From Acidobacteriota bacterium (GTDB lineage: Bacteria; Acidobacteriota; Terriglobia; Terriglobales; Acidobacteriaceae), in NCBI GenBank assembly GCA_013285705.1, contig JABDHA010000003.1, positions 1 to 64,000 on the forward strand: DNA of 64,000 nt. Direction: 5' to 3'. Position 1 is the first letter of the stretch; the number at the start of each line of letters is the position of its first letter. Of this stretch, positions 2,157-23,526 are shown piece after piece. The notes beneath the pieces are model-generated. The model was not told the origin of the DNA. It did no database searches and saw only the letters and a list, made by a program, of their open reading frames with translations. The position numbers and the translations under genes are program-made.

Positions 2157-3507
2157 ATGTGTTCTGCACGTCGCCCATAGCCTGGGCCAGATTGACTCGG
2201 GACTGGTTGAAACGGTAGAGAGCGTCGATCTGGTTGGAGCTGGCACGCGCTAGTGCGTCCTGAGCGGTGACGACTTCGACGTTCGTCGTGACTCCGGCTG
2301 CGAAGCGACGTTCGGCCTGCGCGACCTCGTCGTTCGCGAGTTGAAGTCCCAGGTTGGCGACGCCGACGTTTTTGCGTGCTGCATCCAATTCGTCAATCGC
2401 CGACTTCACTTCGCGAACAATGCGAGCCTCCAGGAGCTGGCGATTCTGCTCGATACGCTCTTGCTCCAGGTCTGCTCGCGCAATCTCGGCGTGAATCCGC
2501 CCACCGGTGAAGAGCGGAACGTTGAAGCCGATCTGATACCTGTACGCGGGAATGCCATTATTAAAACGCGAGCCCTGGTAAAGCCATATCCCAGAGAAAT
2601 CGATCTGCGGCACGCGTTCTTCAGACGCAGATTTCTGTTCGAGATGCGTGATGCGCTCTTGTGACGCCAGCGCCTGCATCTCGGGACGACTCATCAGCGC
2701 GGTGCTGATGGCTGCTGTTTCTTCAAACTCGGGCAAATAAACGAACTGCAGTTTGTCGGTGACCGCCGGTTCCTGGTCGCGCGGGAGATCGAGCAGTTCG
2801 GCCAGAATGTAGTTCGTGGTGTGCGTGGAAGTTTCCGCGTCGATCAGATTCTGCCGTTCGTTCTGCAATTCGACCTGCGCGCGAGTAGTATCGATGTTCA
2901 GGCCGATTCCCGTCTTCTGTAAATTCGACGCTTGTTCGTAAAGGCGCTCGGCGAGATCGACACGGACCTTCGCGGCGTCGTAAATAGCAAACGCACGGAG
3001 TACCAGGATGTATTGGGTTACGACCGATGCGGTGACATCTTCGCGCGTTACGTTCTCTTGCGCGCGCGCTTCGCGAACGCCTTCACGGGATATCTGATAG
3101 TTGCGAAACAGGGGAAGATCGAGAAGCGACTGCGAATAGGCGGGGCCAGCCTGAATAAATTGATAGGGGCCGCCCGTTGTGCGCGTGCTTGTGCGCTCGA
3201 CCGAGGCCCTGTTGTACTGCCTGACCACTCCGATGCTTGTGAGGCTTGCTTGCGGCAGTAAAGCGGAGCGAGAGATCTGGCTTTCGCGGCCGCTTTCCAG
3301 AGAGAGCAACCGCGAGGCCACAACCTCCGGGTTCTGCTTCAATGCCAATTGCACAGCTTCCTTCAGCGTGAGAGGAATAGTTTGAGGGGACGGACCAGGA
3401 GCAGATTGGGCGAGTCCGTCTTCACAAAAAACAGCAACGAACAACAGAGGGCAAAGGATGGCAGCCACAATGCGCGACGAAATAGATGCGTTTGCCTTAG
3501 TGCCCAT
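2146..3507 (-). CDS. TolC-family outer membrane efflux protein
   Basis: ORF 2146..3864; signal-peptide start MGTKANASISSRIVAAILCPLLFVAVFC at about 3507; TolC-like LTLKEAVQLALKQNPEV and coiled-coil repeats. Confidence 0.88.
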   Translation of the reverse strand: MGTKANASISSRIVAAILCPLLFVAVFCEDGLAQSAPGPSPQTIPLTLKEAVQLALKQNPEVVASRLLSLESGRESQISRSALLPQASLTSIGVVRQYNRASVERTSTRTTGGPYQFIQAGPAYSQSLLDLPLFRNYQISREGVREARAQENVTREDVTASVVTQYILVLRAFAIYDAAKVRVDLAERLYEQASNLQKTGIGLNIDTTRAQVELQNERQNLIDAETSTHTTNYILAELLDLPRDQEPAVTDKLQFVYLPEFEETAAISTALMSRPEMQALASQERITHLEQKSASEERVPQIDFSGIWLYQGSRFNNGIPAYRYQIGFNVPLFTGGRIHAEIARADLEQERIEQNRQLLEARIVREVKSAIDELDAARKNVGVANLGLQLANDEVAQAERRFAAGVTTNVEVVTAQDALARASSNQIDALYRFNQSRVNLAQAMGDVQNTYDK

Positions 3508-3893
3508 GACTCCTCTCCGGCGAGCACGTCTCTCTGCGCTCCCTTTTCGAAGGAATCCGTCAATGGTGAGTTCATCAAATCGGATCGCAACGCGGTGTGC
3601 CGAACTGTGATCGGGAATGAGAGCGGATTCCGTATGGTTAATGTTCACAAGTTTGCCGTCAATTCTACTGTTCAAAGTTGCGCCAGATTCGTCTCTCGTA
3701 TCGCCCGCGCCCTTATATCTCGCCCTCGGATATTGAAGCTGTTCCTTACACGTCCTTCGATGGTTCAAGAGCATGCGAATCGCCGTTAGATTAGCGACGG
3801 TATTTGTCTGGATATCGGAATCTAAAGGGATCTCGAAAAGGAGCCCTGCGGATTGTGAGTACAATTTCGCAGGGCCCGGGAAGCGAGCGCCAC

Positions 3894-4946
3894 TCAGAGC
3901 CTGTCGACGTCAACTACGGCTTGAGCAAACGCTTGCGGGGCTTCCTGCGGCAGATTGTGCCCCACGCCTCCGCTGATGAGGCGGTATGCATATTTGCCAG
4001 AGAATTTTTTTCGATACGCCGAGTCAGGCGGATGGGGCGCACCGTTGGCATCACCTTCAAGGGTGATCGTGGGCACAGTGATGACCGGAGCTTCGGCGAG
4101 CCGCTTTTCGAGGTCGTCGTACTTCTTCTCCCCTTCGGCCAGGCCAATGCGCCAGCGGTAGTTATGGATCACGATGGCTACGTGATCTGGATTATCAAAG
4201 GACGCGGCGCTGCGATCGAATGTAGCAGTGTCGAAGTCCCACTTCGGCGAAGCGAGTTGCCAAATGAGTTTGTTAAAGTCGTTGGTGTTCTTGCTGTAGC
4301 CTAGCTTCCCGCGCTTGGTGGCGAAATAAAACTGGTACCACCATTCGAACTCGGCCGCCGGGGGTAATGGCGCCTCGTTCGCGGCGGGGCTACCAATCAG
4401 ATAACCACTTACGGACACAATCCCTTTGCAGCGTTCAGGCCAGATCGCTGCCATGATGTCGGCTGTCCGCGCTCCCCAATCAAAACCAGCGACGACTGCC
4501 TTCTGGATCTTGAGAGCATCCATCAGGTTGATGATGTCGAGAGCAACCACAGATTGCTGACCGTTCCGGAACGTTTCACCAGAAAGAAAGCGTGTTGTAC
4601 CGTAGCCGCGCAGATAGGGGACGATCACCCTGTAACCTGCCGAAGCCAGCAATGGAGCAACGTCGACAAAGCTATAAATGTCGTAGGGCCAGCCGTGGAG
4701 GAGAATGATCGGTGGACCGGTCGCGGGGCCATCTTCGGCGTATCCGACATTGAGGAGGCCGGCGTCGATCTGTTTGATCGAGGCGAATGAGGTGTGTGTT
4801 CCAGGCTTGATCGCTGGAACATCTGTTGACGCGGGGTTTCGTTGCTGTGCACTCGCTGAGCCGAGAAAACCGAGTTGAGTCGCGGCAACGGCAAGAGCCG
4901 CATTACCGATGAACCGCCGGCGTTGATGATTGATTTCTTCGAGCAT
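3894..4946 (-). CDS. alpha/beta hydrolase (epoxide hydrolase/haloalkane dehalogenase-like), Tat-like leader
   Basis: RRRFIGNAALAVAATQLG leader; ILLHGWPYDIYSF, GFDWGART nucleophile region, GVGHNLPQEAP C-terminal His. Confidence 0.85.
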   Translation of the reverse strand: MLEEINHQRRRFIGNAALAVAATQLGFLGSASAQQRNPASTDVPAIKPGTHTSFASIKQIDAGLLNVGYAEDGPATGPPIILLHGWPYDIYSFVDVAPLLASAGYRVIVPYLRGYGTTRFLSGETFRNGQQSVVALDIINLMDALKIQKAVVAGFDWGARTADIMAAIWPERCKGIVSVSGYLIGSPAANEAPLPPAAEFEWWYQFYFATKRGKLGYSKNTNDFNKLIWQLASPKWDFDTATFDRSAASFDNPDHVAIVIHNYRWRIGLAEGEKKYDDLEKRLAEAPVITVPTITLEGDANGAPHPPDSAYRKKFSGKYAYRLISGGVGHNLPQEAPQAFAQAVVDVDRL

Positions 4947-5067
4947 CGTATTTTTCCTCCAATTGGGTGAATGTGATCTTGGTTGCCATCTTTGTCAGCC
5001 ATTTCCTGAACCGGCTTTGGTGTCAATTCAGGTGGCACTCCTGACGTCAGCGAACCCTCGGTTGAAA

Positions 5068-5910
5068 TCACTTGCATGATGGTTGGTGACCATTAGTTGG
5101 AACTCGCTGCAGGACAATGATCGTCTCATCGTCCGCCGCTTCTGCCCCTTCACGGAACCTGCGCAACGCGGACGGGAGCTGAACACCGAGTGATTCGGCA
5201 GAGCTGCAATCAAGTTGTCTCACCAGGTTCATAAGTCCCTCTGGACCGAGTTCGTCGCCGGCTGGATTCGTCGCCTCCGTGACGCCGTCCGAATAAAGGA
5301 GCACGAGATCGCCGACTTGCAGCTTCACTGCAGTCCTGTCATAGTCGGCGCAAGCGAAAAGTCCAAATGGAACGCCCACAGGCCACTTCCGACGAGGTTC
5401 CGGATTGATCTCAAGCCAGGTCCATTCCTTGCGTTCGGCTTCGAACACACAGGGTATGGGATGACCTGCATTGGCCAGTAAGAGCGACTCTCGCTCGTTA
5501 TGCCATCCGACGGCTACCATCGTGGCGTAATGCACTCCGTCAAGGCCCTGTTGAACGGCCCGATTGAGATCGCGCATGAGCCCGTCATGTTCCAACTCCG
5601 GGAGATATCTCTGCATCAACCGTCGAAGCTCGCCGGACAATGTTGACACCGCCTTCCCATGTCCGCTAACGTCCGCCAATGCGACGCGAGAGACCACGCA
5701 GCCAGGGCAGACCGAAACGTAGTGGACATCGCCTCCCACCCTGCTTGAGCCTGCAGGCGTCGAATGCACCCAAGCCAACATTCCTGGTAGCTCGAGTAGA
5801 CTCGCCGCTCTCTCACTTCCGGCCCAGGTTCCAGCGCACGCGATCTGCGTCCGAATACAGGGAGCCGTAGAGAGATTGCGATCAGGGTGTGTTCTCGATC
5901 CAACAGTCAT
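5068..5910 (-). CDS. PP2C/SpoIIE-type serine phosphatase
   Basis: VGGDVHYVSVCPGCVVSRVALADVSGHGKAVSTLS, LLLANAGHPIP, LVLLYSDGVTEATNPAGDELG motifs of the RsbU/SpoIIE family. Confidence 0.85.
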   Translation of the reverse strand: MTVGSRTHPDRNLSTAPCIRTQIACAGTWAGSERAASLLELPGMLAWVHSTPAGSSRVGGDVHYVSVCPGCVVSRVALADVSGHGKAVSTLSGELRRLMQRYLPELEHDGLMRDLNRAVQQGLDGVHYATMVAVGWHNERESLLLANAGHPIPCVFEAERKEWTWLEINPEPRRKWPVGVPFGLFACADYDRTAVKLQVGDLVLLYSDGVTEATNPAGDELGPEGLMNLVRQLDCSSAESLGVQLPSALRRFREGAEAADDETIIVLQRVPTNGHQPSCK

Positions 5911-16401: not shown

Positions 16402-16926
16402 TCAGCGAAGCAAGCCGAGGTTGGACAATCGATTGCTCATGGCCGCAGTACTTACATGAAACCGTTTGGCCAAAAAGGTGATCGCCTCCTCGTCATCCAG
16501 ATCGAGATCGTTCTTCTTAAGCTCCTGCTGCACTAAGCTCCGAGGCATCAAGAGTGCAGCCCCGAACTGGTTGGCCTCGACCTCTTCATGGTCCACTCCT
16601 CCGGAGGAGTATCCGTCCCGCCGAAAGGTCATGTGACGATCAATAAAGAGCTGGGACTTTTGGTTCTTTTTTACGTGCAATAGATAGTGACTGATTTCGT
16701 GGGCGATCGTGAATCGCTGCCGGACAAGAGCGTGGGTTGAGTTATATCCTATTGCTCCCCGATCCCCTTCGATCACGAGCATGCCCGCTACATTGTCCCC
16801 GAGAGCTTCGGATTGAATCGCGAGGTTAAGGCGGTGCGCAAGCACTTCGATCGCGATCGGAATGCGATAGGTGTCTGTTTCACGAAGAGTTTTTTCAGCT
16901 TTTTCTTCGAGTTTTTCTCTGATCAT
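16402..16926 (-). CDS. ImmA/IrrE-family metallopeptidase
   Basis: HEXXH motif in RQRFTIAHEISHYLLH, EVEANQFGAALLMP; paired with upstream XRE regulator. Confidence 0.92.
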   Translation of the reverse strand: MIREKLEEKAEKTLRETDTYRIPIAIEVLAHRLNLAIQSEALGDNVAGMLVIEGDRGAIGYNSTHALVRQRFTIAHEISHYLLHVKKNQKSQLFIDRHMTFRRDGYSSGGVDHEEVEANQFGAALLMPRSLVQQELKKNDLDLDDEEAITFLAKRFHVSTAAMSNRLSNLGLLR

Positions 16927-17308
16927 GGGCTTTCCTGTCTGGGGAATCGATTTCGATCGTCGCTTTGAGCTTGCTGGCAAACCTGGTCAGAACCTTGATA
17001 GCGTCTGAATCATTATTCGCCGCCTCTCTAATCTGCTTAACCATCGCCGGGTCCAATGTGGCTTCCTTCGCTGCAGGCGAAAGTTCCTCTCGCCGAGGGA
17101 TCAACAGGCTTAAGTCGGTTGCGAGAGCCTCGGAAAACTGCCACAGCAGGTGCAGTGGAGCTCTCTGCCGGCCTGCTTCGATATTCACGACAGAGGCACG
17201 GCTGATTCCGAGTTGCTGCGCAAGTCGCTCCTGGCTAAGTCCTTGCGTTACTCTCGCTTGACGCAGCTTTCGTCCCACTTCTCCATACAGGTCATCGAAA
17301 TCTGCCAT
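16895..17308 (-). CDS. XRE-family HTH transcriptional regulator
   Basis: VGRKLRQARVTQGLSQERLAQQLGISRASVVNIEAGRQRAPLHLLWQFSEAL; 3' end overlaps ImmA gene. Confidence 0.92.
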   Translation of the reverse strand: MADFDDLYGEVGRKLRQARVTQGLSQERLAQQLGISRASVVNIEAGRQRAPLHLLWQFSEALATDLSLLIPRREELSPAAKEATLDPAMVKQIREAANNDSDAIKVLTRFASKLKATIEIDSPDRKAHDQRKTRRKS

Positions 17309-17519
17309 TGAGAGGAAGCTAATCCGGAATTTCAATGCGGTCAACAGAAAGAACCTCGTGATTATCTGGCAAAAACACATTGATTCGATTGCGCCTCATA
17401 TGGCGGCGATCTCGAGATGTCAACCAACAAATTTTCTTTCAATCACCTGTCCGTTCTACCCAGATTCGGCACGCTTATAGATAGAAGGTTGATATCGAAA
17501 TGATTCACGTGCCAAGAAT

Positions 17520-19215: not shown

Positions 19216-19946
19216 ATGGAAGGAAGAGAGCAAAAGCAACAGCAACGGCAGACGGCGAAAGAAGTAATCGCCGCCAACGTGCAACACCTTATCCACCAAC
19301 TTGAACAGGGACATAGCGAAACGCTCACAGCTTACCTCACCGCCATGAGCCACTTTCACAACTACTCTTTCGGCAACATCCTCGAAATTGCACGCCAGAA
19401 GCCGGACGCAACCCACGTTGCCGGACTCTACACATGGAACCAGCTTGGCCGCAGAGTGAAGAAGGGCGAGAAAGGCATCCGTATTCTAGCTCCCATCATT
19501 GGGACAAAACGCAAGGAGCAGGAAGAAGCCGAGAAAGACTTGACGCGACAGCATGTCCCCGTTCTGGTTGGTTTTCGTGCAGCCTATGTCTTCGATGTTT
19601 CGCAGACTGAAGGCAAGGAGCTTCCTGAACATGCACGAGTCAGCGGCGATGCTGGCGCAAACCGCGACCGCTTGATTGAGTTCATCAATACTCAGGGAAT
19701 TGAGCTCGAGTTCAACGAGCGCATTGCACCAGCAATGGGCATGAGCTACGGCGGAAAGATCGTTCTGCTTCCTGGACAGTCGAAGGCCGAGGAGTTTTCT
19801 TGTTTAGTCCATGAGCTGAGCCACGAGATGATTCACAAATCCGAGCGTCGCACCGCAACGACAAAAACCGTTCGCGAGACGGAGGCCGAAGCCATTGCGT
19901 TTGTGGTGAGTAAAGCAGTAGGTTTGGAGACGGGAACGGCATCAGC
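19216..19946 (+). pseudogene. ArdC-like antirestriction / ssDNA-binding domain protein, 5' part (interrupted)
   Basis: TAKEVIAANVQHLIHQLEQG...YSFGNILEIARQKPDATHVAGLYTWNQLGRRVKKGEKGIRILAPI; zinc motif CLVHELSHEMIH; native frame ends at the recombinase element. Confidence 0.9.
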
Positions 19947-19947
19947 T

Positions 19948-19978
19948 GATTATGTTGTCTTCGAGGTTATGTGACGTT
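19948..19978 (+). repeat. left terminal inverted repeat of RIT element
   Basis: GATTATGTTGTCTTCGAGGTTATGTGACGTT; differs from the reverse complement of 23315..23345 at two central bases only (GA vs TC). Confidence 0.9.
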
Positions 19979-20037
19979 CATCCTCTGCCTCCCTATGAAC
20001 ACTGGAGATTTTCGTTTTGAACGTCACATAAGCTGGG

Positions 20038-21048
20038 TTAGAGTTGGGCGAGGAAGGTGAGCAGGTCGGGATTGTCCCGCCAGCGTTTCCTTCCGGATGG
20101 ACGCTTCTGTTCGCACATGCCGAGCGCTTTCGCTTTCATGTCGAGGTCCGTCTCGGCATAGATATTGGTTGTGTCGAGCGAGACGTGCCCCAGCCATGCA
20201 CGGATGGTGTTGATATCCACTCCGGCTCGGAGCAGGTGCGTTGCCGTTGTGTGACGGATGGTGTGCGGGCCGATCTTCTTCTTGTGCATTTCGGGCACGG
20301 AGGTCGCTGCAGTTCGTGCATGGCGAGTGACGATGTCATGGATGCCGAAGCGCGTCAGCGGTTGTCCCTTGCGGTTGAGGAACACAGGATCTTTGTCTTC
20401 ACGTCCACGCGTCATCTCACGCAGTGCGTGTGCGGTCGCCGCCCACAGCGGGCAGAGGCGGACCTTATTTCCTTTGCCCTTCAGACGCACCGAAGATAGA
20501 GTGCTCGTTCCATCGCTGCGCAGAGTTAGATCGCCTATCTCCAGTTGCGCCGCTTCATCCGCACGCGCGCCGGAGTTGTAGAGGAACAACAGCAAGACAT
20601 GGTCTCTGTACCCGATCCGTGTTGATTGGTCGGGAACAGCCAGCAACACATCGATCTCATGTTTGTCCAGATAGCCGACGGGGACACGGGTCGATCGCTT
20701 GAACTCCACCGAACGAAGCTGCGCCGACCAGCCGAGATTGTCCGGGCTGCGTTGGCCGATGAACCCAGCCAGCGCATGGATGGCCGCCAAGCGTTGATTG
20801 CGCGTGGAGATCGTGCAGTCACGCTCCTCTTCAAGATGCCGCAGGAAGGCCCGAACCGTGTCAGCATCGAGGTCGACCACAAGAAGCTTGTCAGCCTTCT
20901 TGTGCAACAGATTGGCTGCGAACACGATCATCAGACGCAACGCATCCCGGTAGCTCTGCTGCGTATTGCGCGAGAGGTTGCGGTCGTCGGGCAGATGCTC
21001 CATCAGGAAGCGCCTAACCCAAGAACCGAGAGTATGTTTATCGCTCAT
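20038..21048 (-). CDS. ritC: tyrosine recombinase, third gene of the trio
   Basis: NSGARADEAAQLEIGDL, HTIRHTTATHLLRAGVDINTIRAWLGHVSLDTTNIYAE catalytic R/HxxR/GH/Y; start overlaps ritB end. Confidence 0.88.
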   Translation of the reverse strand: MSDKHTLGSWVRRFLMEHLPDDRNLSRNTQQSYRDALRLMIVFAANLLHKKADKLLVVDLDADTVRAFLRHLEEERDCTISTRNQRLAAIHALAGFIGQRSPDNLGWSAQLRSVEFKRSTRVPVGYLDKHEIDVLLAVPDQSTRIGYRDHVLLLFLYNSGARADEAAQLEIGDLTLRSDGTSTLSSVRLKGKGNKVRLCPLWAATAHALREMTRGREDKDPVFLNRKGQPLTRFGIHDIVTRHARTAATSVPEMHKKKIGPHTIRHTTATHLLRAGVDINTIRAWLGHVSLDTTNIYAETDLDMKAKALGMCEQKRPSGRKRWRDNPDLLTFLAQL

Positions 21049-21976
21049 CGCCACCTCCACATACATAGCGCTCGAAGCGGCGATTGGCCTCTCCCAGAAG
21101 CTCCGGCGTCATCGCCAGATAACGCTGCGTCGAGTGCAACTCGACATGCCCGAGATAGGTCGAGAGAGCAGGCAGCAGGGCTTGCACATCGGCGCCGCTG
21201 CGATACCACTCCGTGAGTCGATGCACCGCGAAGGTATGTCGCAGATCGTGGATGCGTGGTTGGTATGGACTGGCCTTTTCCCGGCGCACGCCCGCAAGGT
21301 TGCATAGCCGGCGGAAGCTGGCCTCAACCACCTGCCGTGGAACTGCCTTATGCAACCGGGATTGGAAGAGTGGCTGGTCGTTGCGGTCAAGCCTCCCCGG
21401 CATGGCAAGATAGACTTGTAACTGCGCCTGAACATCCGGTCCAAGCGGTACTAGACGCGATTTGTAGAACTTCGTTCCTCGGACCGTGATGACGCCAGCA
21501 CCAAGATCCACATCGCCACGAAGTAACCGCAACGTCTCGCCGATGCGCATCCCCGTGCCATAGAGCAGAAGCAGCAGCGTGCGGAACATGGATGCCGACA
21601 TCAGACACGCATCTCTCTGCTGACTGTACAGAAGGGCAGAGAGCAACAGCCGCAACTCAGAGACAGTGTAGATATAGGGAACGAAGCTGGTTGTGTATTT
21701 CGGGGCTGGTGGCGGTAGAGGAACCGTGTGCAACTCCTCTCGCAACCGCCAGTGCTCGAAAAAGACCCGCAACGTGCCATACTTGTTCCGCCATGTTGCA
21801 GGGCCAGTGCGTGCCCCTGCCAGGAAGTGCGACATCTGATCAGGCGTAAGTGAGGCGAGTTCGAGTTCACCATAACTACGGGACAAGGCGCGAAGCACTC
21901 TGGCCGGACTGTAGTACTTCTCGCCTGTAGCCTGACGCTTTGCGATGTAGAGGGTGATTGATTCGGCTAGCTTCAT
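21038..21976 (-). CDS. ritB: tyrosine recombinase, second gene of the trio
   Basis: YGTGMRIGETLRLLRGDVDL, HDLRHTFAVHRL, YLGHVELHSTQRYL; ATGA overlap with ritA stop. Confidence 0.88.
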   Translation of the reverse strand: MKLAESITLYIAKRQATGEKYYSPARVLRALSRSYGELELASLTPDQMSHFLAGARTGPATWRNKYGTLRVFFEHWRLREELHTVPLPPPAPKYTTSFVPYIYTVSELRLLLSALLYSQQRDACLMSASMFRTLLLLLYGTGMRIGETLRLLRGDVDLGAGVITVRGTKFYKSRLVPLGPDVQAQLQVYLAMPGRLDRNDQPLFQSRLHKAVPRQVVEASFRRLCNLAGVRREKASPYQPRIHDLRHTFAVHRLTEWYRSGADVQALLPALSTYLGHVELHSTQRYLAMTPELLGEANRRFERYVCGGGDER

Positions 21977-23247
21977 AGCAGCCCTCCGAGGTCGAAGTCC
22001 GCTACGCGACGCAACATCGAGATATCGACCTTTGCATAGATACCCGTAGACATCGCGCTTCGATGTCCAAGGAGATCGCCGATTTCTTTCAACGACACGC
22101 CCTCCTGCAACAGGTGCGTCGCGCAAGCATGTCGCAGGCAGTGCGGCCCGCTTCGCCGGCAGCTTATACCCACCGCTTTGAGCTGTCGGTTAGTCATCGC
22201 CCACAAGCTCGTAGCAGCGACACTTCGGTAAGGGATATGCAGCGTCACGAACAGATGACGGCATTCGGTGCGCGGACGTGCCTTGGTGATGTATTGCAGG
22301 ATCGCTTCGCCCACCTCGTGCTGTAGCGGGTACGGCTGCCTTCCGCCGCGCTTGGAGTGCGTGACCAGGAACGTCTCGGCTGACCAGTCGAAGTCGCTCA
22401 GCAGTAAACGCGACACCTCGCCGCTACGCAGCCCATAGATCGCGAACAAGAGCAGAACCGCCCTGGCACGGAGCGCTGATGGACTGTCCCCTCCGATGCC
22501 GTGCAGCAACCGCTGTACCTCTTCCCACGTTGGCCCATCTGGCAGTCCTTCGTGAACATACCTCCGAGGCCCTTGGATCGCTCCCGCTATACCTGCCTTG
22601 CACCACCCACGCCGCTCGGCATGACGGAAGAAGGCGCGCAGTGCCTGTGCAGCCACTGATACGGATGTCCGGTTCCAACTGTCCGTCCCTTTCAGCGTCA
22701 GGAACTCATCTACATCCTGAAGCCGCACACGCGACAGGCAAGTATGCCGCGCGGTGAACCACGTCAGGAACGTCGAGGCCTTCCAGCAGTGCGACCGCAC
22801 CGACAGCGGCGATAGTCCCTGCTCTTCCATCATCCGTCGCGCGAAGTCATCCAGATGATCCGTGAACCATGCGCGTGGTTTGGACCGGGTCTCAAGCCTG
22901 CCTGCGAAGCGTAACCACTTCTTTGCCACGTATTCGAAGTAGCTCTCCGTCCGAACATAGGTGCGAGCCCGCGCGTTCGTTCGCTGCCGTTCGCCCCAAC
23001 GCCGCGAAGCCTGCTTGATCTCATCGACCGTGACATCGCGCAGTGCCTCCAACTTCAGCAAATCGATGACGTGCAACAGCTGCCCAGACACATTCCGTAG
23101 CGCTGCGCGGCTTGTTCCTCGCTCCTGCAAATAGTTCAGGAAAGCCAACCGCTCTTCCAGCAACGGGGCGTCACGGTGACGGTTGAGTGCAAATGGAAGT
23201 TCCAAAAGCGTATCCAGCATGATCGGGTCTCCTTGATCCCGGCTCAT
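21973..23247 (-). CDS. ritA: tyrosine recombinase, first gene of the trio
   Basis: AIYGLRSGEVSRLLLSDFDW, HCLRHACATHLLQEGVSLKEIGDLLGHRSAMSTGIYAKVD. Confidence 0.88.
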   Translation of the reverse strand: MSRDQGDPIMLDTLLELPFALNRHRDAPLLEERLAFLNYLQERGTSRAALRNVSGQLLHVIDLLKLEALRDVTVDEIKQASRRWGERQRTNARARTYVRTESYFEYVAKKWLRFAGRLETRSKPRAWFTDHLDDFARRMMEEQGLSPLSVRSHCWKASTFLTWFTARHTCLSRVRLQDVDEFLTLKGTDSWNRTSVSVAAQALRAFFRHAERRGWCKAGIAGAIQGPRRYVHEGLPDGPTWEEVQRLLHGIGGDSPSALRARAVLLLFAIYGLRSGEVSRLLLSDFDWSAETFLVTHSKRGGRQPYPLQHEVGEAILQYITKARPRTECRHLFVTLHIPYRSVAATSLWAMTNRQLKAVGISCRRSGPHCLRHACATHLLQEGVSLKEIGDLLGHRSAMSTGIYAKVDISMLRRVADFDLGGLL

Positions 23248-23314
23248 GCTAGCCCCTCAATTTATGTTGTCTCCAGATTGGCCATCCCCAGCATTCATGG
23301 GCATGATTCGCGAC

Positions 23315-23345
23315 AACGTCACATAACCGAGAAGACAACATAATC
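23315..23345 (-). repeat. right terminal inverted repeat of RIT element
   Basis: AACGTCACATAACCGAGAAGACAACATAATC, inverted match of 19948..19978; followed by sub-repeats TTTATGTTG / CAACATAAC. Confidence 0.9.
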
Positions 23346-23370
23346 GGCTTTATGTTGAGCCCAACATAAC

Positions 23371-23526
23371 GCCGACTACATCCAGCTTTATCACGGCAAC
23401 GCGTCGCTATTGGCTGAAAGTCTTGAAGTCATCCAGAAAGCATCCACCGTCATTCTTGCAGCACTGGAGCCAAAGCCGGAATTCGAGAATCAGGTGCCGC
23501 AAGATGATATGGTAGCCGCCAGTTAA
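23371..23526 (+). pseudogene. ArdC-like protein, displaced 3' part
   Basis: ADYIQLYHGNASLLAESLEVIQKASTVILAALEPKPEFENQVPQDDMVAAS* continues ...GLETGTASADY of the 5' part in frame. Confidence 0.88.

Follow-up and report, generated by a model that had tools for sequence, protein, structure and literature searches.

An intact RIT transposon within an acidobacterial ardC gene and a candidate two-core mode of RIT insertion

The RIT element interrupting ardC

The window analyzed here is a 64,000-nt stretch of DNA from an Acidobacteriota bacterium (assembly GCA_013285705.1, contig JABDHA010000003.1, positions 1 to 64,000), which is contig 3 of a draft genome that is 59% complete and split into 229 contigs. 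It holds an intact RIT (recombinase in trio) transposon, ritA-ritB-ritC, which has kept all catalytic residues and interrupts an ardC gene. The three genes of the trio are adjacent, lie on the minus strand, and overlap translationally: ritC (20038–21066; 342 amino acids), ritB (21038–21976; 312 amino acids), and ritA (21973–23247; 424 amino acids), whose product has a long N-terminal part and whose overlap with ritB is ATGA. Only these three recombinase genes are present between the element ends. All three products match Phage_integrase, and alignments with other trios revealed the invariant R, HxxR, H, and Y in each of RitA, RitB, and RitC. Identity to other trios is 38 to 66%, while RitC of the nearest copy is 89% identical. 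The initial annotation of the window, made from the sequence alone, had proposed a RIT with three overlapping tyrosine recombinases, and these matches, residues, and alignments bear it out. The nearest named relatives with the same element are Acidobacteria, e.g., Bryocella elongata.

The element occupies positions 19950–23369 (3420 bp, including a terminal palindrome), and its insertion adds 3426 bp. The terminal inverted repeats, first described as 31 bp with two mismatches, are real and in fact extend to 35 bp at 91% identity (19944–19978 and 23315–23349). The length of the element and of its repeats agrees with what is expected of a RIT (~3.5 kb, with terminal inverted repeats of ~28 to 34 bp); RITs are further expected to have two CB domains in RitA and an additional helix at the C terminus of RitC. 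Earlier descriptions of Rit trios come from Cupriavidus, where radC and an IS66 gene were the insertion sites (PMC2864759); ritA1B1C1 of Cupriavidus metallidurans CH34 likewise consists of three overlapping tyrosine recombinases in ~3.4 kb with ~30-bp terminal inverted repeats and targets an IS66 transposase and other genes (PMC2864759, PMC3414803). At the ritC end of the window element, the outer arm P (TTATGTTG, 19950–19957, plus strand), assigned from its sequence and from the same arm spacing in relatives, is accompanied by a second arm repeat, TTATGTGACGTTC, which starts at 19967, 17 bp inward of P, and by an inverted inner arm repeat, GAACGTCACATAA (20019–20031, minus strand). The outer arm at the ritA end, P′ (CAACATAA, 23336–23343, minus strand), was assigned from its sequence, with 21 of the 23 terminal bases being the same as at the other end.

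Base-by-base reading of the right junction revealed a 20-bp palindrome, TTATGTTG-AGCC-CAACATAA (23350–23369), between two 6-bp spacers. The order at the insertion is as follows: ardC; spacer S1, AGCTGA (19944–19949, plus strand); the element body, TTATGTTG...RIT...CAACATAA; spacer S2, TCGGCT (23344–23349, plus strand); the palindrome; spacer S3, CGCCGA (23370–23375, plus strand); and ardC again. Since S2 is the reverse complement of AGCCGA, the 6-bp spacer occurs three times, once inverted. The palindrome and the inverted third spacer had been missed in the initial annotation, which misread the right end because of the palindrome and placed the element ends a few bases away from those given above. 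A simple 2-bp (GC) target duplication, as had been assumed, was rejected, the spacer being 6 bp.

The two flanks are parts of one ArdC protein (Pfam ArdcN, E value of 9e-10), in agreement with the proposed insertion in an ardC-type gene. The 5′ part lies at 19216–19943 and the 3′ part, from YIQLYHGNASLL to the stop codon, at 23376–23526, both on the plus strand and both continuous in relatives. The empty site is obtained when 19949 is connected directly to 23376 (or 19943 to 23370). A search with the joined protein detected an ArdC homologue in 43 of 150 genomes of the family, including partial matches, with up to six per genome, and the junction is crossed without a stop in many family genomes. 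The nearest intact ardC, at locus L151 from the same genus, has 88.5% DNA identity through the junction. The continuity of ArdC in relatives thus confirms the empty site that had been predicted.

The ardC target had also led to the suggestion that the element travelled on, or invaded, a conjugative vehicle. Indeed, conjugative plasmids are known to carry ardC, and many of the RITs found on plasmids are on conjugative ones. However, no relaxase or conjugation gene was found inside the element, and no relaxase, conjugation, or plasmid protein among the 20 scanned neighbouring proteins; the neighbours in the window are ordinary chromosomal genes, encoding regulators, a porin, an efflux system, and hydrolases. 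Given also that ardC is widespread in the family, arrival of the RIT inside a conjugative element carrying ardC appears very unlikely; a conjugative origin is not needed here and is not supported.

One palindrome and three spacers in RITs of many phyla

The window element is an ordinary RIT member, and what appears to be new is a rule of the family that is seen through it. Relatives were drawn from family genomes, 80 loci of bacterial and archaeal species genomes, plasmids, and viral contigs. Elements were parsed for a terminal arm (ATGT repeated 17 bp apart), a 6-bp spacer, and a palindrome outside the spacer. The comparison set comprised 41 nonredundant RITs from many phyla with both ends readable; two further plasmid RITs (L196 and L197) are degraded, and no ends were recovered from them.

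A 20-mer palindrome was present at exactly one end in 26 of the 41 RITs, always with a 4-nt loop, while random sites pass the one-palindrome test at a rate of 0.5%. The 4-nt loop was also the best among lengths of 0 to 10 in a first, unconstrained pass. In these 26 elements, the three spacers agree at an average of 5.0 (S1/S2), 5.15 (S1/S3), and 5.08 (S2/S3) of 6 positions. When spacers were permuted among elements, the agreement fell to 1.7 of 6, and the observed level was reached in none of 5000 permutations. The spacers vary widely from element to element (TAAAAC, CATCAC, CGACAA, CGCCGA, and others), so the agreement within elements does not reflect a shared consensus.

The palindrome is located at the ritA end in 19 of the 26 elements and at the ritC end in 7. 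If it were a fixed, one-sided terminal feature, e.g., a terminator or a captured repeat, it would play no part as a second recombination core. Such a view would fit the 2012 survey of RITs, in which the sole features recorded as flanking ritA and ritC were an inverted repeat and a palindrome overlapping it (PMC3414803). Yet the palindrome occurs at either end of the trio, always together with a target-matching inverted spacer and the 4-nt loop, and the side on which it lies follows the target, as described below. We therefore regard a fixed terminal feature as highly improbable.

Palindrome side, trio orientation, and spacer origin

Whenever different RITs share a target site, their palindromes all lie on the same side of it, irrespective of trio orientation. 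Nine insertions (L140 and L141 being counted once) were found at the LDPFAGSG codons of methyltransferase genes, with the palindrome at the ritA end in five and at the ritC end in four. Three insertions at the SK(F/Y)(A/C)DH codons of IS66 obey the same rule, and in a fourth one, L032, the side expected to be bare has no palindrome. At the ASADY codons of ArdC, the window element and L034 have opposite trio orientations and the same palindrome side. ArdC is thus better seen as a recurrent RIT target than as a sign of a conjugative vehicle.

Several other features of RIT targets were observed in the course of this comparison. The zinc-binding HEL(S/A)H motif of ArdC is a second recurrent RIT site (L067, L102, and L039), distinct from the one hit in the window. 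Highly conserved codons in other mobile genes, namely, IS66 TnpC at two motifs and, as judged by eye, IS21 IstA, are also struck repeatedly (L033, L045, L046, L128, L129, L100, L126, and L083). A RIT clade (L111, L099, L098, and L094) appears to insert in domain V of group II introns, with Rfam group II D1-D4 matches nearby; the joined flanks of L111 and L099 fold into a domain V–like hairpin. At L032 (positions 3009–5803 and surroundings, genome G072), the RIT, whose ritA end is deleted, lies within an IS66 gene that is apparently itself within an M61-type peptidase gene, a triple nesting.

A view of orientation is provided by identical copies within single strains of Escherichia coli. Strain WP4-S18-ESBL-07 carries four copies without a difference in 3904 bp, one on the chromosome (in yhdJ) and three on plasmids, two in each orientation. 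Strain 550 carries two oppositely oriented copies that are identical over 3905 bp. The joined flanks of the plasmid copy of strain 550, with one GACCCG kept, are identical to empty plasmids over 607 bp (100%), and GACCCG is also the native yhdJ spacer (L146). A variant spacer, GACCTG, marks the copies of this strain: It occupies S2 in the plasmid copy (L123) and S3 in the chromosomal one (L143). One circle with the cores GACCTG, on the ritA side, and GACCCG would be predicted to leave GACCTG at exactly these positions, each copy having used a different core. The RITs of E. coli are 3.9 kb long and contain an extra gene, with no function assigned, after ritC and within the element ends (L123, 6227–6802; L142, 4015–4590).

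The 20-mer of the E. coli elements is slightly asymmetric, so that its phase can be read from the ritA end to the ritC end. Within each of the two sets of copies, there is one phase (3 of 3 and 4 of 4) despite the trio pointing both ways. Taken alone, this phase evidence is suggestive but not strong, since not every copy is independent of the others in its set (L138 and L144 have a flank in common). Between the two E. coli groups, the phase is different, which implies that the 20-mer has flipped relative to the trio at least once.

These observations bear on the idea that the trio flips in place, i.e., that recombination between S1 and S2 inverts the RIT within a fixed, palindrome-bearing site and that this alone makes both orientations. 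S1 and S2 are indeed inverted, nearly identical cores, and the different phase of the 20-mer in the two E. coli groups points to some inversion over time. However, in-place flipping would hold the 20-mer fixed to the target, while in both E. coli strains it follows the trio. Flipping also offers no explanation for why one copy carries GACCTG at S2 and the other carries it at S3. On the basis of the 20-mer phase, in-place inversion was rejected as the sole source of both orientations, and we consider this explanation improbable.

The origin of the individual spacers could be assessed in five informative cases, and in all of them the target's own 6 bp lie opposite the palindrome. L129 has the same spacer at S1 as an intact IS66 of 92% identity and the same spacer at S3 as at the element's S2. 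L128 is comparable, its S1 being similar to three intact IS66 genes and its S3 to S2. L143 combines a native S1 with an S3 that is the GACCTG of the element. The remaining two cases are weak: In the window, S1 is closer than S3 to the spacer GGCTGA of the nearest intact ardC, L151 (5 of 6 compared to 4 of 6 positions), and in L099, the domain V stem of the group II intron is restored better by S1 (−19.6 kcal/mol) than by S3 (−14.3 kcal/mol). In line with this polarity, we read S1 of the window, on the side without the palindrome, as belonging to the target and S3, on the palindrome side, as delivered by the element. A search for close empty sites of L045, L100, and L122, intended to widen the polarity test, yielded nothing useful. 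The same polarity in SE (strand-biased circularizing integrative elements) and in Tn554 has been interpreted as indicating one-strand exchange (PMC10214605).

A proposed two-core circle and its relation to known systems

At the level of sequence, comparison thus establishes the anatomy of the insertions, their empty sites, the rule on the palindrome side, the occurrence of identical copies in both orientations in one strain, and the movement of a marked spacer. The best explanation, which we consider quite probable, is a circular form with two mirror-image crossover cores around the palindrome, either of which can integrate. The element ends would be joined in the circle as P′-s′-P-n4-P′-s-P, each core being composed of 8-bp arms around a 6-bp spacer and the two cores being mirrored around the 20-bp palindrome. 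Either core would recombine with a target 6-mer resembling its spacer. Because the cores are mirror images, the trio would be inserted in either direction and the palindrome would still fall on a fixed target side. In a finished insertion, S1 would come from the target, S2 would be the unused core, in inverted form, and S3 would be delivered by the element. When the two ends of the inserted form are connected at S1 and S3, the stretch between the trio ends does become P′-s′-P-n4-P′-s-P. For strain WP4-S18-ESBL-07, the predicted circle junction, from the ritA end to the ritC end, is CCACATAA-GACCCG-TTATGTTGAGTTTCACATAA-CGGGTC-TTATGTGG. We further infer that the circle may be an obligatory intermediate, that the polarity is that of one-strand exchange, and that labour is divided among the three recombinases.

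An apparently natural circular form was found at L107, a Calditrichaeota contig from a metagenome-assembled genome (JAGVEU010000149.1, 3543 bp), which contains one RIT with its palindrome and has a 99-bp exact terminal overlap. Its junction reads CAACATAA-TTATAG-TTATGTTTTTAAGAACATAA-CTACAG-TTATGTTG, as the two-core circle predicts, and we take it as support, not proof.

Several points weigh against the two-core circle. L107 is the sole circular contig found (1 among 80 loci), and a tandem array would assemble alike. The circle junction was absent in exact-pattern scans of 396 genomes of the phylum and of IMG/VR, with a pattern so strict that it misses even L107. The spacer polarity rests on the five informative cases, of which the window and L099 are weak, and the 20-mer phase is not the same in the two E. 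coli groups. Last, 15 of the 41 RITs depart from the pattern of exactly one palindrome. By blastn, the two flanks of the element are similar in 6 of these 15 and in none of the 26 one-palindrome elements; the flanks of L055 and L081 are, in addition, alike by eye. The same target half occurs twice in L065, L102, L178, and L126, which lack a palindrome (the weak palindrome score of L126 is not real), and L108 and L090 have a palindrome at both ends and the same target half on both sides. Because the palindrome goes with one target half, six to eight exceptions look like recombinants between two insertions of opposite trio orientation, while L094, L105, L127, and L181 are not accounted for.

One version of the two-core explanation, which does not exclude it in its general form, is that the substrate is single-stranded: One strand of the circle would fold P′-s′-P-n4-P′-s-P into a hairpin with a double-stranded core, and replication would complete the insertion. 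S2, the 20-mer, and S3 form a near-perfect stem with a constant 4-nt loop, and the spacer polarity implies exchange of one strand. In integrons, the folded attC hairpin serves as the recombination site, and a folded RIT palindrome could likewise present a recombination core, but this is a resemblance only, as RITs have neither a cassette array nor attI. A double-stranded circle that exchanges one strand, the route proposed for SE elements (PMC10214605), would, however, give the same products, and we regard the single-stranded version as possible rather than likely.

Several known systems are similar in part. SE elements share with RITs a 6-bp spacer, the 6 bp of the target at one junction and those of the element at the other, and several recombinases, but they carry IntA, Tfp, IntB, and Srap in ~16 kb and have one core in the circle, with no palindrome or mirror-image second core described (PMC10214605). 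The window element, with three recombinase genes only, does not have the intA-tfp-intB-srap gene set; judging from five informative cases, two of them weak, RITs work like SE elements in spacer polarity and are not members of that group. Tn554-type transposons also carry a 6-bp donor flank to one side of the new site (PMC10214605) and use multiple tyrosine recombinases, but their TnpA, TnpB, and TnpC belong to other families, and a mirror-image core pair is not described for them in the literature consulted. GInt islands resemble RITs in having three tyrosine recombinase–type proteins in a row but are large, contain ginD, and are flanked by direct imperfect repeats (PMC5385486).

In the 2012 survey, the inverted repeat and overlapping palindrome of RITs were said to “do not fit well” with known sites, and variable ends were noted (PMC3414803); a table published in 2023 marks RITs as untested for target specificity, empty site, and movement alike (PMC10214605). 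The two-core reading would explain the variable ends, give base-exact boundaries and empty sites, and account for both orientations. It also predicts one exact circle junction that can be tested by polymerase chain reaction in sequenced E. coli strains, making the transposition mechanism of RITs directly testable. The three-spacer, two-core reading appears to be undescribed in PMC2864759 and PMC3414803; priority for the palindrome rule relative to Ricker et al. 2013 (Plasmid) is uncertain. Whether RITs form a distinct transposition class is, in our estimate, an even question. Such a class would be defined by a two-core circle, a directional, spacer-matched reaction that nevertheless allows either orientation, and one-strand polarity, possibly with a folded single strand. 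Three kinds of half-site, the element arm and the two target halves, would come together, which may be why a third recombinase is required.

Two further observations were made in the genome of the window. A second, different RIT (66% identical) is partially present at L042 (G000 contig 140, near 7650), where it is cut by the contig end. In the window itself, a helix-turn-helix gene and an overlapping IrrE/M78-peptidase gene (16402–17380) are located upstream of ardC and possibly form a small regulatory or toxin-antitoxin–like pair.

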